64,000 nt of DNA. Source: Cryobacterium sp. SO1. GTDB lineage: Bacteria > Actinomycetota > Actinomycetes > Actinomycetales > Microbacteriaceae. The position numbers and the translations under genes are program-made. Where the stretch lies: contig NZ_CP067394.1 in NCBI RefSeq assembly GCF_004210215.2, forward strand, positions 1,550,001-1,614,000, given 5' to 3'. Below, piece by piece: positions 3,037 to 41,936 of the stretch. The notes beneath the pieces were generated by a model. It did no database searches, was not told the origin of the DNA, and worked only from the letters and a program-made list of their open reading frames with translations. Position 1 is the stretch's first letter. The number at the start of each line of letters is the position of its first letter.

Positions 3037-3099
3037 CCGCGAGCTGTGAGAAAAGCACCGAAAATCTTCAGGTTTCGGTGCTTTTCTCACGGCTCGCGA
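3037..3099. repeat. 63-bp palindromic element, copy A (convergent gap)
   Basis: Arms CCGCGAGCTGTGAGAAAAGC and its near-perfect complement flank a short centre; 25 of 26 inner arm positions pair. It lies between two convergent stops (2806 and 3104), where it could act as a bidirectional terminator. Members with the same length are at 7149, 37458 and 41874. The rest of the 2807-3103 gap holds no gene I can defend. Confidence 0.85.
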
Positions 3100-3103
3100 G
3101 CTG

Positions 3104-6100
3104 TTAGGTGAGGTCGCGGAGGCGGGCCGAGAGGCCGGCCTCCGTGGCACCCTTCCGCTCGGAGGTGATCGCGATCACGAGCATGACCGCGCCGATGGTG
3201 GCCAGTGTGATCCACCAGAGCAGCGGGTTGATGGTCTGGCCGATCTGCACCGTGAACACCACGATCACCTCGATGGGCAGCACGGCCAGGCTGATCAGGA
3301 ACGGCGCGGCGAGGCGCCGGGTCGAACCGATCAGGATCGCCGTGAGTGCGAGCGACATCACCAGGATGGCGCGCCAGGTCTGCGGGTCGGTGCCGGTGGC
3401 CAGCACCGACGGCAGGAACGTGACGATGATGCCCGGCGCCAGCAGCCGCCACGAGCCGGCGAAACCGGAAGGCCACGACCCAAGTCGTGCGGGGACGGTT
3501 CGGGCTCCCGGGCGCATCCCGATGATGCCGGCACCGAGCAGCGCCAGTCCGAGCGGCAGCGAGAACGCCTCGACGCGCAGCTCCCGTTCGCTCCAGCCCG
3601 CGACGGCTGCGCACCAGGCGAGCAGGAACAGGAACCAGACCGGGGGCAGCGACGTCGCCGTGCTGCGGCTGCGCGCCGCGACCACGAGCATGAAGCCAAG
3701 CACGGCGACCATCAACAGCGTCAGGGTGCCGATCGAGAAGGCGTCAGCACGGATGGCGGTGATCGGCCCGGCCACCAGGAACGCGGTTGCTGCGGCGAAA
3801 CGCCACCGCGAGGGTGAGGTGTCGCGGGACGCCGGGCCGCCGGATGCTGTGCCGGCCATACCGTCGGCTGCCGTGTCGCCCGAGGCCGTCCCGCCCTGCG
3901 GAAGCCCGCCGGCGAGCGCCGCCAGCAGGGTCGCCAGAGCGCTGAGAGCGAGCACGGGCAGCATGACACCGGTGGTCGGGTTGCCGGCCAGGGCGTCGAG
4001 GCCGAGTCCCCAGCGCATGGCCTGCGCGGCACCCGCAGCCGCAGCCAGGGTGGCCACCACGGCCGTGGAGCCGAGCAGGCTGCCCAGCCCGGTCGCCGCA
4101 CCCGGACCGGTAGCCCTGGTGGCGGCGCGGGCGATGGCGTAGCCGACCAGCACCAAGAGCAGCGCGGCGGCGATCAGTCCGTAGGCCCGCCACGGGATGG
4201 CCGGGCCGAACTGCGCGAGGCCGTACCGCACGGAGCCGAGCTGCGCGGCGCCGAACCCGGCGGACCCGTTGGTGACGAGCACCGCCAGGCTGGGCACCAC
4301 GGCCAGGGCGAGGCCGGTGGCGGCCAGCGTCTGGCCGGTGCGGCCCCTGGCCACGAGGATCGCGCCCACGACCACCATGGCGAGCGCCGGTGGCAGCAGG
4401 TACGGTTCGATCACCTCGATGCCGCGGCTGGCCCAGACGCACCAGAGCGCGCCGGTCCAGCTGGCGCCGGCCGCCCACCAGGCCAGCTGCCGGCCGGTGC
4501 GCAGAGCGTTGACGGCAGCGCCCACACCGAGGATCACGAGCACCAACACCGTGGTCGACAGACCTGCTGCGGTGCGCACCAGTGCCAGCAGCACCGCCAG
4601 CACGCCGGTGAGGGCGGCGGATGCCTCGATCCACCGGCGGCAGGCATCCGCTTCGAGGGCGGTCAGGCCGTGCTTCTCGAGCGCCTGCGTGATCGGACCG
4701 GTGGCCGCGAAGGTGCCGGCCACGAGCAACGCGATGAGCGGCAGCACCACCGGCGATCCGCTGGTGGCCAGCAGCTGAGCGCCGAGGCAGACCACCACCA
4801 CCGCGAGCGAGGGCACCAGCAGAGCGGCCGCGAAGGAGCGCAGGGCAATCGTCATGCCCGGGCGACGCACCGTCATCAGGGTCAGGGCGAGGGCGAAGGC
4901 CACGCCGGTGGACAGCGCGGTCCAGCCGCTGCGCACCAGCAGCACCGCCACGATCCCGGCCAGGAACGGCACCGCACTGACCAGGAGCAGGGCGTACCAG
5001 CTGCGCGGGGTGAGCCAGGTGGTGAGGGTGGCGGCGAGCGCGCAGAGCAGGCCGAGGGTGGTGGTGAGGCAGAGCACGGCGATGCCGTCGACGCCCACGA
5101 GCGTGAGGGCGGTGGCCACATTGACCAGCGCGTACGCGTAGCCGACCGCCAGGTACAGCGGACGCCACCGCGCCGGCAGGGCGCGGGCCAGCGAGGCGAG
5201 GGCGAGCACCGCGGCCGCGCCGACCCACACAGTGGTCGACTCCTGCGACCATCCGGTGATCGCCGCCAGCAACAGCAACAGGTGCGCTCCGCCGCCCACC
5301 GCCCGCCGCACCGTCGGGGGTGCCGCGACGAGCGCGGGAACGAACAGCAGACCGGCGATGAGCGCCGCCGTCAGGACCAAGCCCACGACGGCCTGACCGG
5401 TGATTGACAAGCCCGCCCAGCCGGAGATGGTGAGCAGGGTGAACACCCCCAGCCACAGGGCCAGGCGGTTCGGTGCCGACACTCCCGTCGCTGGCCCGGC
5501 TGGCACGGGTTGCGGGGGCCCGGCCGGCGCCGGCGCAGCCGTTCTGCGGCTCACCTGAGCGACGGCCCAGGCGGTTGCCGTGAGGGCGGCCAACGCGACG
5601 ATCGACGCCAGGCCGACGTTCTGGGCGACGAGCCCGGGGCCGTAGGACGGGTTCGATCCGGCGACGAACGCGAAGTCACCGCTGGCCGGGAAGGGCGAGG
5701 TCTCGCCCGGGTAGCCGCCGGCGACCGATCCGGCCCAGCGCAGCGGAGCGAACAGCGCGCCCGACAACTGCACGACCGCGGTCACCAGGGCGGGGGTCGC
5801 GGCCAGGATCAGCACCGTGACGGCGCCCGAGCCCAGGGCGCCGCGGCTGGCGGCCGGGCTCGAGGGCAGGGCGGCCAGCCCCACCAGGGCGATCCCGCCC
5901 GCGACCGGCACCAGTGCCAGGTACCAGGCCGAATCCTCGAACGACACGGCCAGCGGCAGGATGGCCACCGCCGCCACCGCGAAGGCGCCGGCGGCGAAGC
6001 TCCACGGCCGCGGCAGGCCGTTGCGGCTGCCGAGCGCCGCCACCACCGCCAGAACGGCGAGGATGCCGGCATACCCGGCGATGTCAGTGCCGGTCGTGCT

Positions 6101-7120
6101 GATCGAGCGCACCAGCAGCTGCAGCAGGGCGGCGAGCACGGCAACGGCCTGCAGGGCGGTGGCCGTGTATCGTTCGACCCCCAACGCGGAACCCAGCCCG
6201 GGGGAGAGGCGCGCGAGCACGGGGTGCAGGCCAAGCGCGACGACCGCCACGCCCAGGCTGCCGAGGATCGCGCCCCAGGCGTTGCCCCCGCTGCCGAGCA
6301 GCCCGGGCGAGAGGGCCAGCCCCACGACAGCCGCCCACAGCCAGACCCGCACACCGGAGCGGGCGCCCAGCCCGAACAGCACGGCCGAGCCGGCCAGCGT
6401 GCCGAGAGCGGCGAAGACCCACCCGCTCGCGGAGGACGGCGCCAGCTGTGTGAACGCCCATACGTCAAGGCCGACGAACACCACGCCAAGGGCCGCCACG
6501 GACTCGGCGGAGAACTGCAGACCGCGACGGGCGAACCACCAGGCCCCGCCGAGGAAGACCAGCGTGATCGCCCCGATGATGCTCGTGCGCACGGCGAAGC
6601 TCGTGAGGTCGGGGTTGAAGAAGGTGAAGACCAGTGCCGCCACGGCGAGCAACGCGGCGCCGGCGAAGGCCAGCACCGACTGCACGCTGACCTGGGCGCC
6701 GGCATCCGGGGCAGCCGAAAGAACCGCAGCCGGCACGCCGACAGGTTCGCGCGCACCGACCGGTGCCGCAGGTCGCTGCGGCACGGACACGCTCTGCGGC
6801 CCGGCAGCGCCCACCGCGGCCGGGTCGACCGCAGACGGGCCCATGGCAGCTGTGTCCATTGGGGGAGTGCCCACTGCCGGTGTGCCCAGCGCAGGCGCGC
6901 CGGAGCGCCACACCGTCGGTATCCGCTCGATCAGGCGGTCGCGCCCCCGCAGCGCGTTGACCACCCGCTCGGTCGACGACTCCAGCGCGCCGCCCAGCGG
7001 GCCGCTCAGGTCGGCCCCGCAACCCGGGCACCACTCATCGCTCAGACGCGCGTCGCATCGGGGACAAATCCGCCGGTCCTGCAGATATCGAACGGCAGCA
7101 TCGTTCCAGATTTTCCCCAT
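3104..7120 (-). CDS. Giant polytopic membrane protein with N-terminal zinc ribbon (SCO7613-like)
   Basis: 1338 residues. Residues 18-35 hold a CPRC...CPGC zinc-ribbon pair. A Pro/Ala-rich linker to about 130 follows, and then the rest is an almost uninterrupted series of hydrophobic helices, of the order of 35-40 segments, broken by short Gly/Ala/Ser loops. This matches actinobacterial proteins described only by the Streptomyces SCO7613 C-terminal domain; their function is not known. The short loops and lack of catalytic motifs make a scaffold or lipid-related role as likely as transport. It is monocistronic, flanked by 63-bp palindromes on both sides (3037 and 7149). Confidence 0.75.
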   Translation of the reverse strand: MGKIWNDAAVRYLQDRRICPRCDARLSDEWCPGCGADLSGPLGGALESSTERVVNALRGRDRLIERIPTVWRSGAPALGTPAVGTPPMDTAAMGPSAVDPAAVGAAGPQSVSVPQRPAAPVGAREPVGVPAAVLSAAPDAGAQVSVQSVLAFAGAALLAVAALVFTFFNPDLTSFAVRTSIIGAITLVFLGGAWWFARRGLQFSAESVAALGVVFVGLDVWAFTQLAPSSASGWVFAALGTLAGSAVLFGLGARSGVRVWLWAAVVGLALSPGLLGSGGNAWGAILGSLGVAVVALGLHPVLARLSPGLGSALGVERYTATALQAVAVLAALLQLLVRSISTTGTDIAGYAGILAVLAVVAALGSRNGLPRPWSFAAGAFAVAAVAILPLAVSFEDSAWYLALVPVAGGIALVGLAALPSSPAASRGALGSGAVTVLILAATPALVTAVVQLSGALFAPLRWAGSVAGGYPGETSPFPASGDFAFVAGSNPSYGPGLVAQNVGLASIVALAALTATAWAVAQVSRRTAAPAPAGPPQPVPAGPATGVSAPNRLALWLGVFTLLTISGWAGLSITGQAVVGLVLTAALIAGLLFVPALVAAPPTVRRAVGGGAHLLLLLAAITGWSQESTTVWVGAAAVLALASLARALPARWRPLYLAVGYAYALVNVATALTLVGVDGIAVLCLTTTLGLLCALAATLTTWLTPRSWYALLLVSAVPFLAGIVAVLLVRSGWTALSTGVAFALALTLMTVRRPGMTIALRSFAAALLVPSLAVVVVCLGAQLLATSGSPVVLPLIALLVAGTFAATGPITQALEKHGLTALEADACRRWIEASAALTGVLAVLLALVRTAAGLSTTVLVLVILGVGAAVNALRTGRQLAWWAAGASWTGALWCVWASRGIEVIEPYLLPPALAMVVVGAILVARGRTGQTLAATGLALAVVPSLAVLVTNGSAGFGAAQLGSVRYGLAQFGPAIPWRAYGLIAAALLLVLVGYAIARAATRATGPGAATGLGSLLGSTAVVATLAAAAGAAQAMRWGLGLDALAGNPTTGVMLPVLALSALATLLAALAGGLPQGGTASGDTAADGMAGTASGGPASRDTSPSRWRFAAATAFLVAGPITAIRADAFSIGTLTLLMVAVLGFMLVVAARSRSTATSLPPVWFLFLLAWCAAVAGWSERELRVEAFSLPLGLALLGAGIIGMRPGARTVPARLGSWPSGFAGSWRLLAPGIIVTFLPSVLATGTDPQTWRAILVMSLALTAILIGSTRRLAAPFLISLAVLPIEVIVVFTVQIGQTINPLLWWITLATIGAVMLVIAITSERKGATEAGLSARLRDLT

Positions 7121-7148
7121 TGCCGCAGTCTAGGTGCCCCTCCTCCCT

Positions 7149-7211
7149 CCGCGAACTGTGAACAAAGCCCCAGAAATGGGCGATTTGAGGGGCTGAAGTC
7201 ACGGTTCGCGG
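7149..7211. repeat. 63-bp palindromic element, copy B (divergent promoter region)
   Basis: Arms CCGCGAACTGTG...CACGGTTCGCGG with inner GCCCC/GGGGC. It lies between divergent starts at 7120 and 7230, so it cannot simply be a terminator. Its right arm ends 6 bp before the putative -10 box at 7218 and would occupy the -35 region. Confidence 0.85.
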
Positions 7212-7217
7212 GATGCG

Positions 7218-7223
7218 TAAAAT
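7218..7223 (+). promoter_or_regulatory. -10 box for a leaderless transcript of the gene at 7230
   Basis: TAAAAT, 6 nt before the GTG start; the AAGG before the start is too close to serve as a normal ribosome site. Confidence 0.5.
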
Positions 7224-7229
7224 GAAGGT

Positions 7230-7811
7230 GTGACGGATGCGACGCAGCACGCCCGGGTGCCGATTTCGCGCATCGTCGATGAGGGGGTGCTCATCGCGCT
7301 GTCCTCGGTGCGGATGGCGGTCAAGAACGACATCATCGTCGCGGGACTCGCCGAGCACGCGGACTACGACCGGGCCCGATTCGCCGATGCCACCCGTCGG
7401 GAACTGCAGAGCCTCGCCGAGGAGAACCAGGAATCCAGCGAACGGGTGCGACTGCAGCGCAAGGAACTGACCTTTTTGACCTGGCGCCACGACCTCTCCC
7501 AGGACCAGCTGATGGACCTCCGCCAGCTCAAGCTACGCCGTCGGGTGCACAAACTCCTCGCCCTCGCCCTGCGCGCCGTGGCCGACGACGAGGAGAAGGT
7601 CGGTCGCCTCGTGGCGGACGCCCAGCACGCGGCCAGCAACGAGGTGCAAGACGCCCTGCACACCCGCCTGATGCGCCTCTCGATCGACCCCCTCGACCCC
7701 GAATATCAGCGCCGCCGGGCCGAACGCACCGAAATGTTCCTCCTCGTGGATCTGGCACTGCTTCAGCTCAAGGCCGACGAAGCCGCCGGTCAGAGCCAGG
7801 GCGAGTACTGA
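7230..7811 (+). CDS. Unknown helical protein upstream of jetA
   Basis: 193 residues, GTG start. I do not recognise a family. The sequence is mostly predicted helix, rich in Arg/Glu/Leu, with a heptad-like stretch at about 45-85 (ESSERVRLQRKEL region) and another at 90-130; no membrane segment, signal peptide or nuclease motif is visible. It ends 121 nt before jetA in the same direction, so co-transcription is possible but not shown; it is also the gene whose promoter is occupied by the 63-bp element at 7149. It might be an accessory factor of the jet operon or an unrelated neighbour. Confidence 0.7.
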   Translation: MTDATQHARVPISRIVDEGVLIALSSVRMAVKNDIIVAGLAEHADYDRARFADATRRELQSLAEENQESSERVRLQRKELTFLTWRHDLSQDQLMDLRQLKLRRRVHKLLALALRAVADDEEKVGRLVADAQHAASNEVQDALHTRLMRLSIDPLDPEYQRRRAERTEMFLLVDLALLQLKADEAAGQSQGEY

Positions 7812-7932
7812 GCGGTCTGGCGCGCCGCCGCCCAGGACTGCACAGCACGCCCCCCGCGCCGTTTCCCGGTCGCCGGGGCGACTACGGTTGAGGAGGCCCT
7901 CAGGCGGGCCGGCGAGAAGGGAACGAGCACGA

Positions 7933-9459
7933 GTGAGCGACATCGCGGGTGAATTAGCGCGGGTGCACAGCGCCTTCGACCGACCCACCCTGCGGCTCCT
8001 CGACCGCAAGTGGGCGCCGTTCGTGCTCGCGGTGTTCAAGTCGTCGTTCAGCCGCGACCGGCGCAGTGTGCAGGCCGACCGGCTGCACACCCAGGTGGAT
8101 GCCTACCTGGCCGACCTGCGTTCCATCGGCAGCGAGGTGCCCGGTAAGAACGGGCGGGCGCTCTGCGTGCAGTGGATGAACGACCAGTGGCTCTACCGGG
8201 AGACCGGCGACGACGACGAGGAGCAGTACTCGCTCACCTCGCACGCCCTCGAGGCCCTGCTGCTGGTCGAGGGGCTCTCCCGCGATCGCGCGCTGATCAG
8301 CGAATCCCGGCTCACCACCATCGTCGACACCGTGCGGCACCGTTCCACGCAGGCCAACCCGGACCGGGACGAACGCATCCGCCGGCTCGACCTGGAGATT
8401 GACGCGCTGAACGCCGAACGCGACCGGCTCGCCGCCGGCGGCGCCATCGCCGCGGCCTCGAACGATCAGATGCACGAGGGCTACGCCAACCTGATCGACC
8501 TGATCACCCAGCTGCCCAGCGACTTCAAGCGTGTCGAGGAGTCCGTCGCCGGCATGCACCGGCAGATCGTGAACGACTTCCGCGCCGAGGAACGCCCGAT
8601 CAGCGAGGTCCTCGACGAGTACCTCTCCAAGACGGATGCGCTGATGTCCTCGACCGCCGAGGGCCGGGCCTTCGAGGGCGCCATCGTGCTGCTCCGAAAC
8701 GACGACCTGCTCGCCAAGCTCAAGAACGACCTCGAGTCGATCATGCTGCACCCTTTCGCCCTGGAACTCAGCGCCGCCGACCGGCGCAGCTTCATGGGCA
8801 CGGTCAGCCTGATCCGCAAGGGTGTCGACGACGTGCTCACTCAGCGGAACGGCCTGACCACCACCCTGCGCGAACACATCGTGAACCACGACGTGGTCAA
8901 GGACCGCGAACTCGAACGGTTGCTGCGGGAGATCAACAAGGAACTCGCCGTGTGGATGGAAACCGCCGGCCCCCGGTCGACGGTGACCGCGGAACTGATG
9001 CCGGGCACCCTGGAGCTCGAGCACCTACGCGAAAGGTTCTACGACCCCGGCGCGCACAAGGCGCCGCCGCCCCTCGAGGACGTCTCGGCCTTCGCCCCCG
9101 AACCGCCCACCCTGGATGCGATGCGCACCCAGGGCGGTCCGCTGCTGGCCGATCTCCGCGACGCCATGGTGAGGGCCTTCAGTGCCAACCGTGCCGCATC
9201 CGTCGGCGACGCCTTCAACAGCCTCGAGCCGGCCATGCGCCGGCCGGTCGAGATTCTCGGCCTGCTGCAGCTGGCCACCCAGGTCGACGCCGTCGACCGC
9301 ACGGATGCCGCGGCCTCGACAGCGGGCTCAGACACCGAGTCCTTCGAGACCGTACGCCCCGACGGCTCCCGCCGCACCTTCAGGGTGCCGCGCATCACCT
9401 TGACCGACGACAACACCGCGGCGCTGGCCGCCCTGAACTATGGACCTGATCATGACTGA
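7933..9459 (+). CDS. jetA: JetA/MksF-like kleisin subunit (DUF3375)
   Basis: 508 residues from a GTG start preceded by AGAAGGGA. The N-terminal winged-helix part ([18 protein letters not shown]) and the central helical segments, followed by a coiled coil near 150-175 ([18 protein letters not shown]), are typical of DUF3375. In type I Wadjet this is the MukF-like kleisin that bridges the two JetC heads. Wadjet complexes extrude loops on small circular DNA and, with JetD, cleave it. The frame is open further upstream to 7888, but the family N-terminus begins near here. Its 3' end overlaps jetB by 8 nt, so translation is coupled. Confidence 0.88.
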
Positions 9460-20059: not shown

Positions 20060-20944
20060 CTACGGCTCCCGGGGAATCAGCCGTTCGGCCAGGAACTCGA
20101 CCGTGCGATCAAGCGCGGCCCTGGTGGGGTGCCCGGGCTCGTCGACGAGGCTGACCGTGAGCACGCAGTGCGCCGATGACGCGATTCCGGCCGCGTTGCC
20201 CGGCGACGAATCGATCTCGATGCTCTCGAAACCGGCACCGAACTCCGTACGCAGGGTCTGAAACCGTTCGGGCGGGCACCCGCGGTCGTCGGTGAACCGT
20301 AACGCCAGGATGCCGAGCCCCTCCGGGCCGTCGGTGGTGCGCTCCTTGAGGGTGTCGATGTCCCGCGGCGCCAGGCCGATCGAGGCTCGCCCGGACGCTC
20401 CGAGGGGGAGGGGCAGCGCCGGCTGGCTCAGCACCGCGGCCAGCACCGCCGGCTCCAGGGCCGTGGCCAGGGCGAAGCCGCCGGTGAGGCACATGCCGAT
20501 CACCCCCACCCCGGTGCCACGACTCGGGTCGACGCCAGCCGTGTTCGAGCCAGCCGTGCCTGCGTCAGCCGTGCCTGCGCCAGCCGTGCCGGCGCCGTCG
20601 GCCCAGGCCTGACGCACCAGCGCCCGCAGCCATCCCGTGGCGCCCGCCGGCTGGCGGGTGAGCCCGCGGAACTCCCTGGACACACAGATGCGGCCGATGG
20701 CGCGCAGCATCGCGCCCGTGGTGACCACCGCACCCGGCGTCCCGAACAGGCTCGGCAGGTACACCCTGAAACCGCGGTCGACCAGGCGGCGCGCCAGGTC
20801 GACCACACCGGGATGGAGCCCGGGGATCTCGTGAAGGAGCACCACGCCCGGTCCGTTCCCGGCCGTGAAGACCTGGTGCGAATAGCCATTGTGACTGAAC
20901 GCGGACTCGGTGAAGCCCGTAAGCGCTGGGGGTGGCTGGGTCAT
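20060..20944 (-). CDS. Dienelactone hydrolase family protein with a repeat insertion
   Basis: 294 residues. Alpha/beta hydrolase of DLH type: VVLLHEIPGLHPGVVDLARRL near 35, nucleophile Cys in GMCLTGGFAL near 152, Asp in TDDRGCPPE near 220 and His in SSAHCVLTV near 255. A Cys rather than Ser nucleophile fits the DLH group. Between the N-terminal part and the nucleophile lies an Ala/Gly/Thr insert built from four 15-bp units (20534-20593). TATCTT 7 nt before the ATG suggests a leaderless mRNA. Natural substrate unknown; many homologues are general esterases. Confidence 0.82.
   Translation of the reverse strand: MTQPPPALTGFTESAFSHNGYSHQVFTAGNGPGVVLLHEIPGLHPGVVDLARRLVDRGFRVYLPSLFGTPGAVVTTGAMLRAIGRICVSREFRGLTRQPAGATGWLRALVRQAWADGAGTAGAGTADAGTAGSNTAGVDPSRGTGVGVIGMCLTGGFALATALEPAVLAAVLSQPALPLPLGASGRASIGLAPRDIDTLKERTTDGPEGLGILALRFTDDRGCPPERFQTLRTEFGAGFESIEIDSSPGNAAGIASSAHCVLTVSLVDEPGHPTRAALDRTVEFLAERLIPREP
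20534..20593. repeat. 15-bp coding tandem repeat, four units
   Basis: Four consecutive 15-bp units close to GCCAGCCGTGCCTGC inside the hydrolase gene, giving an AGTAG-like five-residue repeat. In-frame period means copy-number change would not break the gene. Confidence 0.8.
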
Positions 20945-22298: not shown

Positions 22299-22339
22299 TT
22301 TTGGGTTTCCTCCTCGTATCGATTCCCCAGGAGGTTTCC

Positions 22340-24910
22340 TTGCCTACATACTTCGGCCCGACCGGTTCCGAAAACGGTTCGTTCGACGAATTCCTGGCCC
22401 GCTACCTGCAGGGCCAGCGCCAGGCGCAGTCCGGCCGTCCCATCGAGATCACCCGGCTGCTCAGCCGCCGCACCCACGAACTCCTCGTGCAAGCGGCCAA
22501 GTTCGCCCACGGCCACGGCCACGCCCACGTGGACGCCCTGCACCTGCTTCGGGTCATGGTGGAGCAGGAACCCGCGGTCTCGGCCATCCGCCAGGCCGGT
22601 GGCGACCCCGCCGCGATCGTGACCGCCGCCGACGAGCGTCTCCCGGAGTCGAGTGACCAGCAAGCCACGTCGGCGCCGGCCCTCACGCCGTCCGCGCAGC
22701 GCGCCCTGCTGGATGCCCACCAGGTCGCCCGCGCCTTCGGCTCCACCTACATCGACCCCGAACACCTGTTCTTCGCGTTCGTGGTGAACCAGGACGCCCC
22801 CGCCGCCCAGGTGCTGGCCGCCGCCGGCGTCACGGCCGAATCGCTGCAGGCCGGTGCCCAGCAGGCAGCGAACGAGGACGCGCAGACCGAAAGCGGCGTC
22901 GCGAAGAACGGCGAGGCATCCGACACCCCGATGCTCGACACCTACGGCGTCGACCTCACCGAGCGCGCCCGCTCCGGCAAGCTCGACCCGGTGATCGGCC
23001 GCGGCGACGAGATCGAGCAGACCGTCGAGATCCTCTCCCGGCGCACCAAGAACAACCCGGTGCTGATCGGCGAGGCCGGCGTGGGCAAGACCGCCGTCGT
23101 CGATGGCCTGGCCCAGGCCATCGTGGACGGCTTGGTGCCCGAGCAACTGCGCGGCAAGCGCGTCATCGCGCTCGACCTGCCCGCCATGCTCGCCGGCACC
23201 CGCTACCGCGGCGACTTCGAGGAGCGCCTCACCAAGACCATGGATGAGATCAGCGAACGCAGCGATCAGATCATCGTCTTCATCGACGAGCTGCACACCG
23301 TCGTCGGTGCCGGCGGCTCCGGCGAGGGCGGAATGGACGCCGGCAACATCCTCAAGCCGCGCCTGGCGCGCGGAGAGCTGCACGTCGTGGGTGCCACCAC
23401 CCTGAACGAGTACCGCAAGGTCGAGAAGGACCCGGCGCTGGAACGCCGTTTCCAGCCCGTGCGGGTGGGCGAGCCCGGCATCGAGGATGCCGTGAAGATC
23501 CTCGCCGGCCTGCAGGAGCGTTACGCCGAGCACCACTCGGTGCGCTACACGGATGCCGCGATCCGCGCCGCCGTGGAAATGAGCGCCCGGTACATCCCGG
23601 ACCGGTTCCTGCCCGACAAGGCCATCGACCTGATCGACCAGGCCGGCGCCCGTACCCGCCTGGCCCTCGGCTCCCGCGTGGACGTCGCGGGCTTGCGTGA
23701 GAAGCAGTCCGCGCTCGAGTCGGCGAAGGCCCAAGCGGTCGCCGCGGAACAGTACGAGGAGGCGTCCCGGTTGCGCGACGAGGCCGAGACGGTCTCGGCG
23801 AGCATCGACGCGGCCATCGTCAGCCAGGGTGGTGAGGACTCCGGTCCGTCCGCCGTGGTGGACGAGGCCGAGATCGCAGCGATCATCGCCAGGTCCACCG
23901 GCATCCCGGCGAGCCGCCTCACCGCGGGGGACCGCGAACGTCTGGCCACGCTCAAGGATGACCTGCACCAGCGGGTCATCGGGCAGGACGACGCGGTGAA
24001 CGTGATCGCCAAGGCCGTGCGGCGCAACCGCACCGGCATGGGCGACGCCTCCCGGCCGGTCGGCAGCTTCCTTTTCCTCGGCCCCACCGGGGTGGGCAAG
24101 ACCGAGCTGGCCAAGTCCCTGGCCGCCTCGCTGTTCGGTGAGGAGAAGGCCATGCTGCGCTTCGACATGAGCGAGTTCAGCGAACGCCACACCGCCAGCC
24201 GCCTGGTCGGCGCCCCTCCCGGCTACGTCGGTTACGACGAGGCCGGCCAGCTGACCGAACACGTGCGGCGGAACCCGTATTCGGTGGTGCTGCTCGACGA
24301 GATCGAGAAGGCACACCCGGATGTCTTCAACCTGCTGCTGCAGGTGCTGGACGACGGCCGGCTCACCGACGGCCAGGGGCGCACGGTGGACTTCCGTAAC
24401 ACGGTCGTCATCATGACGTCGAACATCGGCTCGGAGGTGCTGGCCAGCCGCAGCGGCGCGCTCGGCTTCACCGCGGATCTCGACGGCGCCGGCAACGGCT
24501 TCGGTTCGGAGAAGGCGTTGCGCGACCGGGTGATGGCCAAGCTGCGCGAGGCCATGCGGCCCGAGTTCCTCAACCGCATCGACGAGATCGTGCTGTTCCG
24601 GAAGCTCGATCAGCCGCAGCTCCGCCAAATCGTGCGGCTGCTGCTCGAGCAGACCCGGTCGCGCCTTACGTCCCAGCACCTCGGCCTTACCGTGAGTGAC
24701 GAGGCCGTGGATTGGATCGCCGAGCGGGGGTACCAGCCCGAATACGGGGCGCGGCCACTGCGCCGTGTCATCCAGCGTGAGCTCGACGACCGCATCGCCG
24801 ACCTCCTTGTCGACTCCCGCTTGGCTGCCGGCGCAGAGGTCACGGTATCCGTCGCCGACGACACCCTCGTCGTCGCAGCAGTTCCGGTGCAGCTCCCACT
24901 GGCGGCCTGA
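22340..24910 (+). CDS. HspR-controlled Clp ATPase (ClpC-like unfoldase)
   Basis: 856 residues from a TTG start chosen because AGGAGG lies 5 nt upstream (22329-22334); the frame opens earlier, inside the HAIR element, with no ribosome site. Clp-N repeats cover about 45-185. AAA+ modules have Walker A GEAGVGKT (about 243) and GPTGVGKT (about 581), with VFIDEL and VLLDEIEK Walker B motifs. The middle domain is short and UVR-like ([14 protein letters not shown]), unlike ClpB, and the second module carries a GALGF loop at the place where ClpP-docking loops occur. So it may feed ClpP rather than act as a pure disaggregase. HspR control of such a ClpC-type protein is notable. Confidence 0.85.
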
Positions 24911-33873: not shown

Positions 33874-33876
33874 CTC

Positions 33877-34506: not shown

Positions 34507-34582
34507 CCTCCCACGCTACGGGAAAATCTCGTGCGTACGCATAGAATCTGGCCGTCTGAGCGGATGCGCGGTCATCGTCCGC

Positions 34583-34879
34583 TCAGTCGTGCAGGTGATG
34601 CAGAGGCCACGCCGTGGCGCCGGAGAGCAGCTCGAGCAACGACTGCGCCGACGAGCGGGCCTCGGCCTCGCCGCGTGGATCGTGAACGTCGATGGCCAGG
34701 GGTGGGGCCTCCCCGAATTTGGGGATGTCAACCTCGACCCGGCCACCGTGCGGCAGTGGGACACAAGCCGAGGCGGTGTGGGCGCCCTGCACCGACGCAT
34801 CCAGGGCCGCGGCGATGATGCCGAGGGCCTCCGGCTTGGTGGCGTGGATATCGGCGACGATGGTAGCGACGTGGTCCAT
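34583..34879 (-). CDS. Small conserved-looking protein of unknown function
   Basis: 98 residues from ATG 34879 with GAAGGA 5 nt upstream; the longer frame from 35083 adds non-coding-like sequence. MDHVATIVADIHATKPEALGIIAAALDASVQGAHTASACVP and a GGRVEVDIPKFGEAPPLAIDVHD segment suggest a compact alpha/beta fold. One Cys; no membrane segment. I cannot name a family. The 231 bp upstream (34880-35110) show no other feature. Confidence 0.6.
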   Translation of the reverse strand: MDHVATIVADIHATKPEALGIIAAALDASVQGAHTASACVPLPHGGRVEVDIPKFGEAPPLAIDVHDPRGEAEARSSAQSLLELLSGATAWPLHHLHD

Positions 34880-35110
34880 GGGTGTCCTTCGACGGCGGGG
34901 CGGTTGACCGTCAGCGTAGTCCAACCCGCGCGCCGGCCCCGCAGCTGTGGTGCTCAGCGAAGACTCCGCCCGCACCGGGGACGCTGGAGATGAAACAGCA
35001 CGCTCGCGGAACGGCTTGACGGCCGTTCTGGGGGTACCCGGCACCTTAACGCGAGGCAAACAGCGGCGAGCGGGTTTGGTCACGCCCCCAGGCTCCGGTA
35101 GTCATTCTGT

Positions 35111-36856
35111 ATGAGCAAAGTAACGAAGACGGTGAACCGGGAACTGCGGGCTGTCCGGCCCGTCAGCCTGGGCGAACTGGCCTCGCCGGCCCGTCTGGTG
35201 CCGGCCGACACCCCGCTGGCCGACATCGATCGCACCTTCCGGGCCGAACGTGGGCTGCGGTCCATTGTGGTGCACGACGGCAACCGCTTCGCGCTCCTGT
35301 CTCGTGAGCACGTGGAATACACGCTCACCGGGCGACTCGGTTACGGGCGCGGGCTGCACGTGCGATCAACGGCCGCGCAGATGATGTCGGCAAACTCGTT
35401 CTCGCTGCCGGGACACCTGGAGCTCGGTCACGCCGCGCAGCGCATCCTCACCCTGCCGGAGGAATCCCGCTACCGCGATGTGCTGGTACTCACCGATTCG
35501 GGACCGGGGGTTGTCTCGGTTTCTCAGCTGTTCGAGCGGCTGTCCGCCGACTTCCGGTACGCCGCCCTGCACGATTCCCTGACGGGCCTCGCCAACCGGC
35601 GGCAGCTCGAGGAGCGGGGTTCGACCTTCACCGCGGCTGACCTGGCCGGCGTGGCTGTGCTGTTCATCGACCTGGACGGGTTCAAGGCCGTGAACGACAC
35701 CTTCGGCCACCGTGCCGGGGACGAGGTTCTGGTCGGTTTTGCCGACAGGCTGCGGGGCCTGATGCGTCCAGCGGATGTTCTGGCCCGGCTCGGCGGCGAT
35801 GAATTCGCGGCGCTACTCGTGAACGTCACCGAGGCGCAGGCTCTGGACGTTGCAAACCGGGTGGTGCTTCACGCCGCCGCTCCGTTTGCCAGCGACGGCC
35901 ATTCTCTGCACCTGTCGGCGTCGGTGGGCGTCTCGATGGCCGTCGATGTGGTCGACGAACTGGAGCTCAGCCAACTCGACGCGCTGCTCAGGCACGCCGA
36001 CGGAGCCATGATCAAAGCCAAGAAATCCGGCAAACGCCAGGTGGCCCGGCTCGACGGGAAGGGGGCCGCGCCGATCACCCGCAACGCGCTGATCCGGCGC
36101 CGGCTGGCGGCGGCATTTGAATCGGAGACCTTCGCGCTCAACTACCAACCGCAGTTGAACCTGGTCACGGGGGAGTGCACCGCCGTCGAGGCGTTGCTGC
36201 GCTGGCACGACAAGGTGCTGGGCGAGGTGTCACCGGCGGAGTTCATTCCGATCTTCGAACTGTCCGGCGACATCCACCGCATCGGTGAGTGGGTGATCGA
36301 CCAGGCGTGTGCGCAGGCGCGCCGCTGGCTGGATGCCGGTGAGCCGCGCAGCATCGCGATCAATGTGTCGCCGCTGCAGCTCGCCGCTCGTACCGTGGTT
36401 CCCCAGGTTCTCGCCGCGCTCGCCACCCATCGGGTGCCCCCCGGGCTGTTGCAGGTGGAGATCACCGAGGGGTCCGAGATCACCGACCTGCCGCGGGCGA
36501 TCGGCCAGCTGCAGGCGTTGCGGGACGCGGGCCTGAGCATCGCGCTCGATGACTACGGAACCGGGTACTCGTCCCTGGCCATGTTGCGCGACCTCCCGCT
36601 GACCACGGTGAAGATCGACAAGACTTTCATCGACACGATCGAGAACTCGCCTCAGGATGCGCTCCTGGTGGGCGGAGTCATCGACACGGCCCACGCATTG
36701 GGACTGCGGGTGACCGCGGAAGGGGTGGAGCGGGCCGGTCAATTGCATCTTCTGAGAGCGATGGGCTGCGACACCGCGCAGGGATACCTGATCTCGCGAC
36801 CCGTGCCCGCCCATCTGGTGCCGGCGGTGCAGTCGTGCGTGTCGGAGGGGTGTTGA
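35111..36856 (+). CDS. GGDEF-EAL cyclic-di-GMP protein with N-terminal CBS-like region
   Basis: 581 residues. Residues about 15-150 resemble a CBS-type pair (LVPADTPLADIDRTF...RSIVVHDGNRFALLSREHVEY; ...YRDVLVLTDSGPGVVSVSQLFERL). GGDEF domain about 155-315 has intact GGDEF at about 227 and DSLTGLANR at 160, so diguanylate cyclase activity is plausible. EAL domain about 325-575 has the metal-binding EALLRW (about 358), DDYGTGYSSL, KIDKTFI and AEGVE, so phosphodiesterase residues also look complete. No membrane segment; cytoplasmic. TAGTCA lies 6 nt before ATG, hinting at a leaderless mRNA. Nucleotide binding by the N-terminal region might switch the activities. Confidence 0.88.
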   Translation: MSKVTKTVNRELRAVRPVSLGELASPARLVPADTPLADIDRTFRAERGLRSIVVHDGNRFALLSREHVEYTLTGRLGYGRGLHVRSTAAQMMSANSFSLPGHLELGHAAQRILTLPEESRYRDVLVLTDSGPGVVSVSQLFERLSADFRYAALHDSLTGLANRRQLEERGSTFTAADLAGVAVLFIDLDGFKAVNDTFGHRAGDEVLVGFADRLRGLMRPADVLARLGGDEFAALLVNVTEAQALDVANRVVLHAAAPFASDGHSLHLSASVGVSMAVDVVDELELSQLDALLRHADGAMIKAKKSGKRQVARLDGKGAAPITRNALIRRRLAAAFESETFALNYQPQLNLVTGECTAVEALLRWHDKVLGEVSPAEFIPIFELSGDIHRIGEWVIDQACAQARRWLDAGEPRSIAINVSPLQLAARTVVPQVLAALATHRVPPGLLQVEITEGSEITDLPRAIGQLQALRDAGLSIALDDYGTGYSSLAMLRDLPLTTVKIDKTFIDTIENSPQDALLVGGVIDTAHALGLRVTAEGVERAGQLHLLRAMGCDTAQGYLISRPVPAHLVPAVQSCVSEGC

Positions 36857-36931
36857 TCCGCGGGAGCACCTCGCGTATCTGCGCGGGCCGGTCGATAATC
36901 GGCAGCGAAGGCAGACGCACACCTCAGAAAT

Positions 36932-36973
36932 AACCATTCGCAGAGAACCATTCGCAGAGAACCATTCAGCGAG
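36932..36973. repeat. 14-bp tandem repeat, three units, before the VOC gene
   Basis: AACCATTCGCAGAG twice followed by AACCATTCAGCGAG; the third unit merges with the GAGGAGAG ribosome site of the gene at 36984. Confidence 0.8.
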
Positions 36974-36983
36974 GAGAGTCATC

Positions 36984-37454
36984 ATGAGCACGAAACTCAA
37001 CCCCTATCTCGGTTTTCGCGACAACGCCAAGGAGGCGATGGAGTTCTACCACTCGATCTTCGGCGGCGAATTGACGCGCAGTACCTTCGCGGAGTTCCAG
37101 GCCAGCGAGGACCCGAGCGAGCAGGACAAGACCATGCACGCCGCGCTCACCACTCCGAACGGCCTGTCCCTGATGGCGGCCGACACCCCTAATGCCATGG
37201 AGTACACGCCCGGCAACAACTTCTCGGTGTCGCTCAGTGGCGAGAGCGACGACGCCGCCGAAATGCGGGGCTACTGGGACCGGCTCGTCGACGGCGGTTC
37301 GGTGACGATGCCGCTCGAGGCCGCGCCGTGGGGTGACAGCTTCGGCATGTGTGTCGACAGATTCGGGGTGGCCTGGATGCTCAACATCGCGGGCGCCCCT
37401 GCGAACGCTTCAGCGACCGCGCCCCCGCAGGCCGCCTCCAGCGACACAGTATAG
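36984..37454 (+). CDS. VOC-family (PhnB-like) protein
   Basis: 156 residues; GAGGAG before ATG. LNPYLGFRDNAKEAMEFYHSIFGGEL and GDSFGMCVDRFGVAWMLNIA are the start and end signatures of the PhnB/3-demethylubiquinone methyltransferase-like VOC group. No clear metal triad, which is usual for this subgroup. The function is unknown. An Ala/Pro/Thr tail follows after residue 138. Its stop is 3 nt before the 63-bp element at 37458, which lies between it and the convergent reductase. Confidence 0.82.
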   Translation: MSTKLNPYLGFRDNAKEAMEFYHSIFGGELTRSTFAEFQASEDPSEQDKTMHAALTTPNGLSLMAADTPNAMEYTPGNNFSVSLSGESDDAAEMRGYWDRLVDGGSVTMPLEAAPWGDSFGMCVDRFGVAWMLNIAGAPANASATAPPQAASSDTV

Positions 37455-37457
37455 GTT

Positions 37458-37520
37458 CCGCGAACTGTGAGAAAAGCCCCGAGAATCGGAGTTTTTCGGG
37501 GCTTAGCTCACGGTTCGTGA
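37458..37520. repeat. 63-bp palindromic element, copy C (convergent gap)
   Basis: Fills the whole gap between stops at 37454 and 37522. Arms CCGCGAACTGTGAGAAAAGC, inner CCCCG/CGGGG, right end TCACGGTTCGTGA. The position suits bidirectional termination. Confidence 0.85.
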
Positions 37521-37521
37521 A

Positions 37522-40038
37522 TCAGATGAAGAGGGTTGTGGTCGATTCCGAGGCCTCGCCGAGGAACGTCGCGACGCCACCAAGCTCGACGCCGGGCATC
37601 AGGTCCGGTTCGGCTATGCCGAGCAGGTCCATAGTCATGGTGCACGCGATCAGGCGTGCACCGCCGGCCTGAGCGGATGCAATCAACTCGGGCAGTGGCG
37701 CTACCTTGTTGTCTCTCATGACCTTTTTGATCATCGCGGCACCGGCACCGAGCATGTTCATCTGAGAGAGCGGGAGGCTGCCGGCGCCCGAGGGCATCAT
37801 CGTGGCGAACATCTTGTCCATCAGTTTGCGGTCCCGCTTGGGGGCGTCGGTGCGGCGCAGTGAGTTCAGCCCCCAGAAGGTGAAGAACATCGACACCTCT
37901 TCGCCCATGGCCAGGGCGCCGTTGGCGATGATGAATGCCGCGAGAACCTTGTCGAGGTCGCCGGAGAACACCACGAAGGAGGTCTTGCCCGGGCCGGCCG
38001 GTGCGGCGTTCGCGCCGGAGGCGGCCGGGGCGACGGCGCCGCCCTTGCGCATGGTGGCCACATAGCCGGGACCCTCGGGCTGGATGGCCACCAGCTGATG
38101 GCCGTTGCGCCTCGCCCAGGCCGGGGCGTCGCTGGCGAAGCCGGGGTCGGACACGTGAACAACGACCTCGTCGCCGGGGGTGAGGGCCTTCATCTTCTCG
38201 GAGAGTTTCATGATCGGGCCGGGGCAGGCGAGGCCGGAGCAGTCCAGGTCTACCTTCACGCCGGAGCCCTGGGCGAGGGCGGTGCTCGCTGCAGCCGAGG
38301 CCTGGAACGGGGCGGCTTCGGCGTACGCGGTCATCGGCTGCGGCGGTTCGTCGTTCTCCGGCTCAACCTCGTGCCAGGAGCGGAACGTGTCCGAACCGCC
38401 CGACAGGGTGGCGACATCCGTGAACCCCCGCTGCACGAGCGCGCGATGGGCGAGATAGCTGCGGAAACCGACCGCGCAGTAGAGCCGCAGCGGCACGGTG
38501 TGGTCCCAGCCCGAGCTCGCCGTACGGATGCTGCCCAGCGGCACATTCTCGGCACCCGGCAGGTGCCAGATCGAGAACTCCTCCGGGGTGCGCACGTCGA
38601 TCAGGCGCGCGCCGGCGGTGGCGTCCGGGTAGTCCTGGGCGTACCAGAGGGTGAGGTCGCCGCGCAGCACGTTGCTCGCCACGAAGCCGGCCATGTTCAC
38701 CGGGTCCTTGGCCGAGCCGAACGGTGGGGCGTAGGCAAGCTCGAGCTCCTCGAGGTCGTAGACGGTCTGGCCGGCGCGGAGTGCGGTGGCGAGCACGTCG
38801 AGGCGTTTGTCAACACCGTCGAATCCGGCGGCCTGGGCGCCGAGGACGCGCCCGGTGTCGGGGGAGAAGAGCACCTTGAGTTGCATCATCGCGGTGCCGG
38901 GGTAGTAGCCGGCGTGCCCGGACGGGTGCACGTGCACCGCGCGGTACGGCAGGTTCGCAGCCAGGAGCTGGCGTTCGGTGGCGCCGGTGCCGCCGGCCAC
39001 CATGTCGAACACCTTGACGATGGAGGTGCCCTGGGTGGAACGGTACTCGGTGGTGCGACCGGAGATGTTCTCGGCGGCCACCCGGGCCTGCCGGTTGGCG
39101 GGTCCGGCCAGGGGAGCGAGCCACTGGCCGGGCAAAACAGTGTGCGGGGTCTCGACGGAGTCGCCGGCAGCCCAGATGTGCGGGTCGGAGGTTCGCATGT
39201 GGGTGTCCACCGTGATGCCGCCGCGGGCGCCGATAGCCAGCCCGGCGGCCGCCGCGAGGGCGGTGTTCGGCCGCACGCCGGCGGAGAGGATGACCAGGTC
39301 GGCCGGAAGCACCGTGGAGTCGGTCAACTCCACGTCGAGAGTCCCGTCCGGACGGGCGGTGAATGCGGCGGCGGCCGTGGAGAGGTGCAGGTTGATGCCC
39401 CGGCTGCGCAGGTGATGCTCCACCGGCACCGAGAGCTCGTGGTCGAGCGGCGGCAGGATCTGGTCGCTCATCTCGACGACGTCCACGGCGGCACCGCGGC
39501 GCCCCAGGTTCTCGGCCATTTCCAGGCCGATGTAGCCCGCGCCGATGACCACGGTGCGCACGGGGCCGCGGACTCCGGACACCGCCTGGGCCAGGGCGGC
39601 GTCCAGCTGGCCCTTGATGGCATCCATGTCGCCGAGGCGGCGGAGCACGTGTACGCCGGGCAGGTTGATGCCGGGCAGCGGCGGGCGCAGGGCTTCGGCG
39701 CCCGGGCACAGGGCGAGGGCGTCGTAGCTTTCGGTGTACTCACGATTGGTGTCGACCTCGCGCACGGTGATGGTCTGCGCGGCGCGGTCGATGCCCGTCA
39801 CCTCGTGGCCGATGCGCACGTCGATATCAAGCGATTCGCGCAGGCTCTCCGGGGTCTGTAGCAGCAGGCGGCTTCGATCCGCGATCACCTCACCCACGTG
39901 GTAGGGCAGTCCGCAGTTGGCGAAGGATACGTGGTGGCCGCGTTCGAGAACGATGATGTCCGCGAACTCGTCCAGTCGACGGGCCCGGGCGGCGACGGAC
40001 GCGCCGGCAGCGACGCCTCCAACGACGACGATTTTCAT
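37522..40038 (-). CDS. Four-module sulfane-sulfur enzyme: CoA-disulfide reductase, rhodanese, TusA and DsrE-like
   Basis: 838 residues; GGAAGG before ATG. Residues 1-450: FAD/NAD(P)H reductase with VVGGVAAGASVAARARRL, redox NCGLPYH near 43 and VIGAGYIGLEMAENLG near 166. Residues 470-560: rhodanese with CAVGFRS loop. Residues 600-670: TusA/SirA-like domain with LDCSGLACPGPIMKLSEKMK, whose Cys in CPGP accepts persulfide. Residues 685-838: DsrE/DsrF-like domain (FVVFSGDLDKVLAAFIIANGA). All the sulfur-relay modules are in one chain, so persulfide could be passed internally and reduced. The operator at 40085 indicates the same regulon as the smaller paralogue at 1127. Confidence 0.9.
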   Translation of the reverse strand: MKIVVVGGVAAGASVAARARRLDEFADIIVLERGHHVSFANCGLPYHVGEVIADRSRLLLQTPESLRESLDIDVRIGHEVTGIDRAAQTITVREVDTNREYTESYDALALCPGAEALRPPLPGINLPGVHVLRRLGDMDAIKGQLDAALAQAVSGVRGPVRTVVIGAGYIGLEMAENLGRRGAAVDVVEMSDQILPPLDHELSVPVEHHLRSRGINLHLSTAAAAFTARPDGTLDVELTDSTVLPADLVILSAGVRPNTALAAAAGLAIGARGGITVDTHMRTSDPHIWAAGDSVETPHTVLPGQWLAPLAGPANRQARVAAENISGRTTEYRSTQGTSIVKVFDMVAGGTGATERQLLAANLPYRAVHVHPSGHAGYYPGTAMMQLKVLFSPDTGRVLGAQAAGFDGVDKRLDVLATALRAGQTVYDLEELELAYAPPFGSAKDPVNMAGFVASNVLRGDLTLWYAQDYPDATAGARLIDVRTPEEFSIWHLPGAENVPLGSIRTASSGWDHTVPLRLYCAVGFRSYLAHRALVQRGFTDVATLSGGSDTFRSWHEVEPENDEPPQPMTAYAEAAPFQASAAASTALAQGSGVKVDLDCSGLACPGPIMKLSEKMKALTPGDEVVVHVSDPGFASDAPAWARRNGHQLVAIQPEGPGYVATMRKGGAVAPAASGANAAPAGPGKTSFVVFSGDLDKVLAAFIIANGALAMGEEVSMFFTFWGLNSLRRTDAPKRDRKLMDKMFATMMPSGAGSLPLSQMNMLGAGAAMIKKVMRDNKVAPLPELIASAQAGGARLIACTMTMDLLGIAEPDLMPGVELGGVATFLGEASESTTTLFI

Positions 40039-40084
40039 GGGATGCCTTCCGTTGGCCCGGACGGTCTCACGGCCAGCCGAGCAG

Positions 40085-40100
40085 ATACCCCGGTGGGTAT
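40085..40100 (-). promoter_or_regulatory. CsoR/CstR-type operator before the four-module enzyme
   Basis: ATACCCCGGTGGGTAT; one base off a perfect palindrome in the 16-bp register (GATACCC...GGGTATC as outer dyad). It lies 46 nt before ATG 40038. On the minus strand it runs into TATCTG, a -10 candidate, as at the other two sites. Confidence 0.72.
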
Positions 40101-40276
40101 CTATCGGGGCTGTTTTGACAGTACACCCCGGCCCCTCCGGTGACCCGGGACTTTAGGCCTGCCGAATGACCGTTCGATGAAGGCGGCCGACGAGTGGCCG
40201 TGCCGAAGGTCATCACCGCGATTGTGTGCCTGTCAGCTCACCTCAGCGCTCCCGACAGCCGCCTCCCCGAACGTCA

Positions 40277-41809
40277 CTAGAACGGCGGGTCGTCGGGGAC
40301 CGGTGGTGTCGGTGTCCGCGTCGACCTGTGCCGGGGAGGCATCAGGTAGCTATCCTCCGGGGGTCGTTTCCGGCTTTTCGGACCCACCACCGGGGCGTGT
40401 GGCCGGGGTGGTCCCATGGGGTTGGCGGGGTCGGTGCGGTAGCTGCGTTTGCCTGGGGAGGTCCAGAGCAGGATCCCGCCGGGTTGTTGAGTGACGCGCC
40501 AGTGGGTGAGGTGTTTGAGTCGGTGGTGGGGTTCGCAGAGATGGGCGAGGTTGTCGCAGTCGGTCGTGCCGCCGTCGGCCCAGTCGTGGGTGTGGTCGAT
40601 GTCGCTGGTGACCGCGGGCCGGGAGCAGCCGGGGAATCGGCAGGTTTCGTCGCGCACCCTCAGCCACTTCTTCATGGCTGTGGTGTTCTTGTGTTGGGTT
40701 TTGCCCAGGGAGAGCACGACTCCGGTTTCGGGGTGGGTGAGTAGTCGGGTGAAGCTGGGGGCGTGTCCGGCGATCTGTCGGGCCATCTCGGGGGAGATGG
40801 GGCCGTAGCCCTCGAGGGCGGCGGGTTCCTCGTCCAGGCCGAGCAGGGTGAGCACGGGCACGGTGATCATGACCGTGCCGCGGATCCCGGCGCCCATCCC
40901 GTCGGGGGTGATGCCGTCCAGCAGGAGTGCCCGGGTGATGTCGGCGCGGAGTTGATCGAGGGTGCGCTTGTTCTGTTCCTCATGCACATCCGAGTTGCCT
41001 GCTTCCGGTGCCGACTCGGACGACGGGTCGCCGAGTTTTTTCAGTTTCGCCGCCATGGTGTTGATCCGGGTGTAGGCGGCTTTGGTGTCGTGGGCGGTGC
41101 CGTACCAGTGCAACCAGCCCATCCCGTCCGGGGCTGCCTCCCACCGGGTGTGCCTCTCGGCGAGGGCGTTGGTGGTGCGGGTCACGATGGACTCCGGGTG
41201 CAGCCGCTCGCGGAGCCGGCGGGCTTTGTCGCGGAACCGGCCCACCGGGAGTCGCTTGGCCTCCGGGAGTATCCGTTCTTCAAACCCGGCTTGGTGGTCC
41301 GTGGGGAGTGAGCGCAGTTGGTCGAGCAGGGTGGTGGCGTGCCGGTAGCTGATCTGTCCGGCCGCGAAGGCCTCGAACGTGGCCGGGGCGAAGCCGCAGA
41401 GGTTCCGGGCCTCGTCGAGTTGCCGGTCGATGGTGCGTTCGGCCACCCGGGTCAGGCACGCGGTTTCGCTCACGATGGTCCGCCGGGCGACGTCGTGGTC
41501 GTCCCACCGGTTGTGCGCGGCCGCGCGGGCCTGGTCCGCCGTCATCGTGGCCGCGTTGTGGTCGGCGAGGCGGATGTTCTCCGGGTTGCCGTGCAGCCGG
41601 GACGCGACCTGGGGCTGTTCGCTCCAGTCCTGCATGTCCACGAGATGTTCGATGCGGCGGGCCTGGGCCCTGGCGATCAGGCGGTCCTGGGCCGCGATGA
41701 GTTCGGTGTAGCGGATCAGATCGGCCTGGACCTGTTCGTCCAGGCTGGGCGTCGGAGAGTGGTCGTCATCGTCCGGAGCCGGCGTTGGTGCCTCAACAGT
41801 GATGCTCAT
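40277..41809 (-). CDS. HNH endonuclease-signature protein with DUF222
   Basis: 510 residues from ATG 41809; the frame is open up to 41905 but that would run through the 63-bp element. The DUF222 region (about 60-330) is helical; a C-terminal HNH motif reads CRFPGCSRPAVTSDIDHTHDWADGG and NLAHLCEPHHRLKH, with Cys pairs for zinc. These DUF222-HNH proteins occur in many copies in actinobacterial genomes and are sometimes linked to mobile or intron-like behaviour, but their role is unclear. No phage or transposon genes are adjacent. The Pro/Arg-rich tail is probably disordered. Confidence 0.82.
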   Translation of the reverse strand: MSITVEAPTPAPDDDDHSPTPSLDEQVQADLIRYTELIAAQDRLIARAQARRIEHLVDMQDWSEQPQVASRLHGNPENIRLADHNAATMTADQARAAAHNRWDDHDVARRTIVSETACLTRVAERTIDRQLDEARNLCGFAPATFEAFAAGQISYRHATTLLDQLRSLPTDHQAGFEERILPEAKRLPVGRFRDKARRLRERLHPESIVTRTTNALAERHTRWEAAPDGMGWLHWYGTAHDTKAAYTRINTMAAKLKKLGDPSSESAPEAGNSDVHEEQNKRTLDQLRADITRALLLDGITPDGMGAGIRGTVMITVPVLTLLGLDEEPAALEGYGPISPEMARQIAGHAPSFTRLLTHPETGVVLSLGKTQHKNTTAMKKWLRVRDETCRFPGCSRPAVTSDIDHTHDWADGGTTDCDNLAHLCEPHHRLKHLTHWRVTQQPGGILLWTSPGKRSYRTDPANPMGPPRPHAPVVGPKSRKRPPEDSYLMPPRHRSTRTPTPPVPDDPPF

Positions 41810-41873
41810 ACCTGAGATCGTCTCACCTACCACCGACACCGCCCCTGCCCGCGCACCCCCCGTCCCACCCCAT

Positions 41874-41936
41874 CCGCGAACCGTGAGAAAAGCACCCAAA
41901 ATCACGAAAACACGGTGCTTAACTCACAGTTCGCGG
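41874..41936. repeat. 63-bp palindromic element, copy D (divergent promoter region)
   Basis: Between divergent genes at 41809 and 41957. Arms CCGCGAACCGTGAGAAAAGC and GGTGCTTAACTCACAGTTCG. The right arm ends 8 bp before TAGGTT, the -10 candidate of the gene at 41957, mirroring copy B. Confidence 0.85.

Follow-up and report, generated by a model that had tools for sequence, protein, structure and literature searches.

The presence of four palindromes, each exactly 63 bp long, within a 64,000-nucleotide stretch of the Cryobacterium sp. SO1 chromosome raises the question as to what kind of element they represent. The stretch (the window) covers positions 1,550,001-1,614,000 of a 4.07-Mb single-contig genome, which we label G000, and its four palindromes share the arms CCGCGARCYGTGA. 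Their coordinates and gap types, as first annotated, hold against the gene calls, with copies A and C in convergent gaps and B and D in divergent gaps:

Copy A, 3037-3099, no strand: 63-bp palindrome in the convergent gap between genes 1127-2806 (+) and 3104-7120 (-)
Copy B, 7149-7211, no strand: 63-bp palindrome in the divergent gap between genes 3104-7120 (-) and 7230-7811 (+)
Copy C, 37458-37520, no strand: 63-bp palindrome filling the convergent gap between genes 36984-37454 (+) and 37522-40038 (-)
Copy D, 41874-41936, no strand: 63-bp palindrome at the right end of a DUF222-HNH unit, directly upstream of a ligD-type gene

The first-pass annotation had proposed a mobile or protein-binding element whose arms covary. 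We find that protein binding fits best, but for the opposite reason, namely that the arms hardly covary. With moderate confidence we favour a family of duplex-DNA sites resembling repetitive extragenic palindromic (REP) elements, probably bound by a protein and reused by mobile DNA as a landing pad.

A large palindrome family of constant length

A genome-wide search, suggested when the four copies were first described, returned 55 copies matching a strict pattern and none matching a reversed-pattern control, so that the family exceeds chance. In the chromosome stretches that we examined G000 holds at least 80 copies, a lower bound, and a model of the palindrome built from sequence only gave at least 150 scored matches with both strands counted. 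As in REP families most copies are extragenic, 77 of the 80 lying outside called genes. The core is 61 bp in 75 of the 80 copies, 62 bp in three, 59 bp in one and 72 bp in one, and in the relative G030 it is 61 bp in 63 of 67 copies. The palindrome has the ends CCGCGAAC/GTTCGCGG and the core CGCGAAC / GTTCGCG, each half-site reads about CGCGAACYGTGASHWAAGCMCC, and C-rich flanks lie outside both arms. No lone half-site with up to three mismatches was found in the G000 stretches scanned (321,188 bases), for which reason uptake sequences were set aside; in 635,550 bases of G030 there are six lone halves with up to two mismatches, all beside ISL3 insertions. Looking for spread by phages or plasmids, we obtained no exact-pattern match in viral contigs and no plasmid match. 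Within a limited literature search we know of no published description of a 61-63-bp palindrome element in Cryobacterium.

The arms as two equivalent half-sites

In the four window copies pairing does hold at element positions 21/43 and 7/57, as had been noted; across 62 dereplicated 61-bp copies of G000, however, it does not go beyond base composition (position 21 pairs in 36 copies against 31.1 expected, position 7 in 51 against 50.2). Over all paired cells these copies gave 1330 against 1315.0±9.9 when shuffled, with 146 of 2000 shuffles as high or higher, and 43 dereplicated G030 copies gave 978 against 967.4±7.5, with 170 of 2000 as high or higher; in a test of 19 copies (18 distinct, 28 arm pairs) every measure was reached by at least 54 of 500 shuffles. 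A similar test on a 60-bp look-alike in genome G214 (20 copies) was strongly positive, with 294 of 380 cells paired against 251.9±6.1 and none of 2000 shuffles as high, hence the test is able to detect pairing. Compensatory arm changes, as expected of a structured RNA under selection for pairing, are thus lacking within the family apart from the faint pooled excess described below. In base profile the left arm is near-identical to the reverse complement of the right arm, with position 21 reading A:C as 33:29 and 33:29. As the arms hardly covary and their profiles match, we read them as two copies of one degenerate half-site and not as a stem selected for pairing. Such a site would be a dyad of two equivalent half-sites at a fixed distance, giving 61-63 bp overall, and to judge from symmetry and conservation a host dimeric DNA-binding protein most likely reads both halves.

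Placement at gene ends and the terminator question

The position of the palindromes invites another explanation, that they act as RNA hairpins at gene 3' ends, either as bidirectional terminators without a U-tract or as protectors of mRNA 3' ends of the kind proposed for REPs. In tandem and convergent gaps the palindrome lies a median of 8 bp past the stop codon and within 30 bp in 86 of 94 distances, and the RNA folds of copies A-D are very stable, far below those of shuffled sequences (z -7.2 to -10.4). The 80 G000 copies comprise 31 in convergent, 32 in tandem and 10 in divergent gaps (73 classified), together with four having a gene called on one side only and three called inside a gene, which are uncertain; for comparison the 57 neighbouring gene pairs of the window divide into 13 convergent, 30 tandem and 14 divergent. 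Three copies (145253, 638589 and 1285978) stand behind 23S and 5S ribosomal RNA genes (loci L004, L149 and L158), the last of them between two 5S genes behind one 23S gene (L158, 1427-2258). All of this would suit a hairpin acting at the end of a transcript, but the run of T residues expected after a terminator is missing, with a mean of 1.62 T in the next 12 nucleotides and six or more T at 1% of 160 ends. Terminator scans left A, B and D unflagged and picked out no more than an inner stem at C. Little arm covariation and a sequence conservation stricter than a terminator needs also speak against the hairpin. The earlier view that the palindromes are neither simple U-tract terminators nor products of chance is therefore borne out, by the absent T-run on the one hand and by copy counts and constraint beyond chance on the other.

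Along the chromosome a bias with respect to the origin is weak in G000 (p=0.07 for 80 copies; p=0.22 with one copy per 5 kb). The corresponding value for 56 G030 copies (p=0.005) comes from stretches mostly chosen around listed matches and is not used as evidence.

Conservation and inheritance

Comparison with G030 allowed 27 pairs of matched copies to be listed, two of which were dropped for core length, while B and D share their right flank only. Over the remaining 25 pairs mismatches occur at 18 of 800 conserved half-site positions (2.2%), at 101 of 300 degenerate positions (34%) and at 157 of 425 positions of the centre. Matched copies are more similar to each other than unmatched ones (0.819 vs 0.771; 0 of 5000 permutations), which indicates that descent is largely vertical.

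Both flanks of 39 of the 80 G000 sites are adjacent in the G030 stretches examined, many of which were chosen because copies were known there. At these 39 sites the palindrome was flagged in 25 and visible in nine more, split by an insertion element in three, replaced by other sequence in one (3407139) and cleanly absent in one (2675832). Among 13 paired sites in stretches chosen by predicted position, nine have the palindrome, three are split and one is a clean empty site. With 9 of 13 sites present in G030, mobility of the palindrome itself, the other half of the original proposal, is mostly unsupported. The clean empty site 2675832 is a single case with no evident target duplication, the mark looked for in a miniature inverted-repeat transposable element (MITE), and fits a gain as well as a loss. 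Of the window copies, C has an orthologue in G030 (1109129), and at B a palindrome copy in G030 adjoins the common right flank. The family is thus real, of constant length, located at gene ends, built of nearly independent half-sites, and vertically inherited under selective constraint. Purifying selection would keep the sites just behind gene 3' ends, where the bound complex may act as a direction-independent transcription roadblock or as a chromosome-organising site.

Several points weigh against a protein-bound site. The binding protein is a postulated one, deduced from symmetry and conservation, and its function is putative. Likeness to the consensus was part of how the matched copies were found, and this biases their conservation upward. 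Individual sites are dispensable, as 2675832 is missing in G030, and copy B is missing in G061, where one flank aligns as far as 7142, the other from 7218 onward, and 6 bp separate the two. Pooling G000 and G030 leaves a faint pairing excess (combined z about 2.1), and on the sense strand of 57 pooled tandem copies, orthologues and near-duplicates among them, G.U is commoner than A.C (68 vs 43, p=0.02). Given this excess and this preference the palindromes may have a role in RNA, although the dereplicated tandem copies of G000 alone have no such G.U preference (26 vs 23). Taking the two sides together we regard the RNA hairpin as somewhat unlikely.

Mobile DNA on the palindromes

Returning to the proposed protein-bound site, its copies are many, safe and recognisable, and mobile DNA therefore uses the palindromes as landing pads. 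Three kinds of element are seen on them in the sequence: an ISL3-family element inside the sites, an IS110-family element at their edge and a DUF222-HNH unit with one end on them. The three matched sites split in G030 carry the ISL3-family element (Pfam PF01610). A genome-wide search of six genomes, with a query taken from a palindrome-borne copy, gave seven full copies, all in G030, and an eighth match to a 46-bp fragment beside one of them. All seven lie inside a palindrome next to its inner GGKGC/GCMCC box, and every one has an 8-bp duplication, a placement whose chance we estimate at about 10^-20 if some 100 palindromes fill 0.15% of the genome. Judged from where its copies lie, the ISL3-family element targets the palindromes. 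An IS110-family element (PF01548 and PF02371 in one copy, L109, run against Pfam) starts at the edge of G000 copies 2690448 and 3734920, both cases having been found via the palindromes, and the G030 palindromes at these places are uninterrupted.

The third element adjoins copy D in the window:

40277-41905, minus strand: gene of a DUF222-HNH protein, longest open reading frame 542 amino acids, ATG at 41809 the likelier start (PF02720, E=2.7e-16; PF01844, E=2.3e-4)
40279-41936, minus strand: dispersed DUF222-HNH unit, bounded on the left by the last sense codon and on the right by the end of palindrome D

The window gene has both the DUF222 domain and the HNH motif; for the sister copy L187 the threshold was passed by PF02720 alone. 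The unit occurs at seven dispersed places in G000, that of copy D included, and each ends on a palindrome. Its left edge is the last sense codon, with the flank completing the stop codon as TAG, TGA or TAA in the six units that are readable there, while for the seventh (L185) the examined stretch stops soon past the left edge. On the right, four units finish where the palindrome does, and three share about 20 bp beyond. Two copies are 98.9% identical over 1741 bp with unrelated flanks on both sides, which makes the unit a discrete one. Mobility thus applies in part, since copy D and six sister copies in G000 did spread, but as the end of this unit.

A palindrome without DUF222 is found in G030 at site 1792878, and likewise at the D site in G030, G004, G022 and G061. 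About 2 kb of other sequence stands in place of the unit at D in G030, hence a simple insertion does not account for the event there. Within a subfamily whose cut was set after the scores had been seen, the palindrome is at the 5' end in 9 of 10 proteins (seven in G000, one in G002 and one, split in frame, in G030); the tenth is the G010 gene, which lies at the D site with the palindrome missing. It was found at the 5' end of none of 30 other DUF222 genes scanned, only six of which are from palindrome-rich genomes. The HNH protein of this subfamily may act on the palindrome. DUF222 as a general driver of the family was rejected, as the other 30 genes have no 5' palindrome and genomes without a match to the palindrome model also carry DUF222. 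The domain has 23 matches in G000, from which we examined the seven units and L193.

These units raise the further possibility that the palindrome is a miniature REP- or MITE-like element moved in trans by some enzyme, possibly the DUF222-HNH protein, with the solo copies as old footprints. Seven units ending on palindromes and the contrast of 9 of 10 subfamily proteins with none of 30 others would fit, as would the left end of the unit, which by eye is loosely similar to a half-site (GAACGGCGGGTT vs GAACTGTGAGTT, 9 of 12). Many sites are vertically inherited however, old footprints would not hold classes of 2% and 34% mismatch, and the clean empty site lacks an evident target duplication. DUF222 is present in 40 of 41 genomes of the genus against 15 of 37 same-genus genomes searched, G000 included, for the palindrome model. 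The expected association with a REP-type Y1 transposase failed to appear, PF01797 being found in 0 of 41 genus genomes including G000 while 5 of 14 named controls were positive. We consider such an element distinctly improbable.

Sequence dialects among relatives

A model search of 60 genomes matched 16, comprising G000 itself, 14 of the 36 other genomes of the genus and one of 23 from other genera, with filters strict enough that weak variants can be missed. At site 3038919 six of 20 relatives carry a palindrome of the same type and two (G003 and G011) one of other sequence, with six having none and six unplaced. At site 3037990 seven of 20 relatives carry a palindrome, several with clearly different arms, and 13 were unanchored. 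Genome G006 carries a variant of its own in 13 copies, with an inner length of 57 bp throughout. It is tempting to see here species-specific dialects at the same orthologous gene ends, in which direction-independent roadblock sites are bound by an undescribed dimeric protein of drifting specificity and the DUF222-HNH unit behaves like a homing element, taking the host site as one of its own ends and giving its protein a defined DNA target; as a joint claim we hold this to be unlikely.

Other palindromes were seen alongside. A second family of about 57-63 bp (CGACWTGCMGC..CCCCTT .. GGCAAGTCG-like) occurs in the region syntenic with the window in G030 (L324), G022 (L327/L326), G023 (L332/L333) and G061 (L321-L323). 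The 60-bp family of G214 (L425-L444) has the same outer CGCGAAC/GTTCGCG and strongly covarying arms, and many of its centres presumably resemble LacI-type operators (TGAATCGGTTCA, AAGCGCTT). G070 has clustered CGCGAAC/GTTCGCG units at a spacing of about 19-20 bp (L336, L344, L348), a layout unlike that of the 61-bp palindrome, and G041 and G222 have CGCGAACGKACA..GTTCGCG-like palindromes of variable length, 52-62 bp, from another family of the order (L337, L338, L341, L342, L345, L349). A single family across the order was rejected, as these loose-pattern look-alikes differ in length, arms or layout.

Promoter-like motifs and other features of the window

Both divergent copies have a -10 candidate after the right arm, at the distances first annotated. 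At copy B it is TAAAAT at 7218-7223, 6 bp on, and at copy D it is the following:

41945-41950, plus strand: -10-like TAGGTT, 8 bp past copy D and followed after 6 bp by the ATG at 41957

A TTAGGTTGGG stretch stands at the place of TAGGTT before ligD in G030, G004 and G022 also, and was likewise seen in G061.

The A-B and C-D intervals vary among relatives. The 1338-amino-acid gene between A and B (3104-7120), whose product has no Pfam match, aligns with nothing in the syntenic region of G022; the junction there holds a single palindrome. We make no claim that palindromes are synteny breakpoints, breaks elsewhere in the same region being common too. Short tandem repeats with a 15-bp period occur at 49196-49274, 59984-60097 and 20533-20592, and the nearest homologue found for the 869-amino-acid protein (22301-24910) is in Cryobacterium lactosi (93%). 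A scan of the window against Rfam gave no match at gathering thresholds.

Significance and comparison with known systems

The palindromes represent a large and conserved REP-like family in an actinobacterium, for which no REP transposase was detected and whose duplex half-sites bear clear marks of selection. They offer a ready set of targets in the search for the putative binding protein, together with an ISL3-family element that took a palindrome as target in all seven of its copies in one genome. For one subfamily of DUF222-HNH proteins, which are poorly understood, they also supply a concrete DNA partner.

Integron attC sites are imperfect palindromes of about 60 bp, species-specific in sequence, that lie a few bp past stop codons and have an RYYYAAC / GTTRRRY core. 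The Cryobacterium palindrome shares their size, imperfect palindromy, proximity to stop codons and species-specific sequence. It was nevertheless rejected as an attC site, without a search for an integron integrase, as it has GTTCGCG and not GTTRRRY, its strands are equivalent and its sites are dispersed and not arrayed.

According to PMC1525189, REPs are high-copy, extragenic, palindromic targets of insertion sequences, and PMC3733652 gives them a size of 20-40 bp and a tag, GTAG or CGTC, at one of their ends. The REPs and bacterial interspersed mosaic elements (BIMEs) of enterobacteria and Pseudomonas thus resemble the Cryobacterium family in being high-copy, extragenic, palindromic and hit by insertion sequences. 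They differ in that the Cryobacterium palindrome has a fixed length of 61-63 bp compared with 20-40 bp, and ends in CCGCGAAC with neither GTAG nor CGTC, the Y1 transposase being found in none of 41 genus genomes. PMC1525189 also describes insertion sequences specific for REPs, among them ISPpu9 and ISPpu10, which target the palindromic repeat. Here by contrast the element is an ISL3-family DDE element, and two copies have an IS110-family element at their edge.

For the mycobacterial REP13E12 elements we know of no such genome-wide palindrome. PMC10589994 counts REP13E12/HNH endonuclease/DUF222 among repetitive elements. These mycobacterial DUF222-HNH genes are dispersed as they are in Cryobacterium, where one DUF222-HNH subfamily ends on a genome-wide palindrome.

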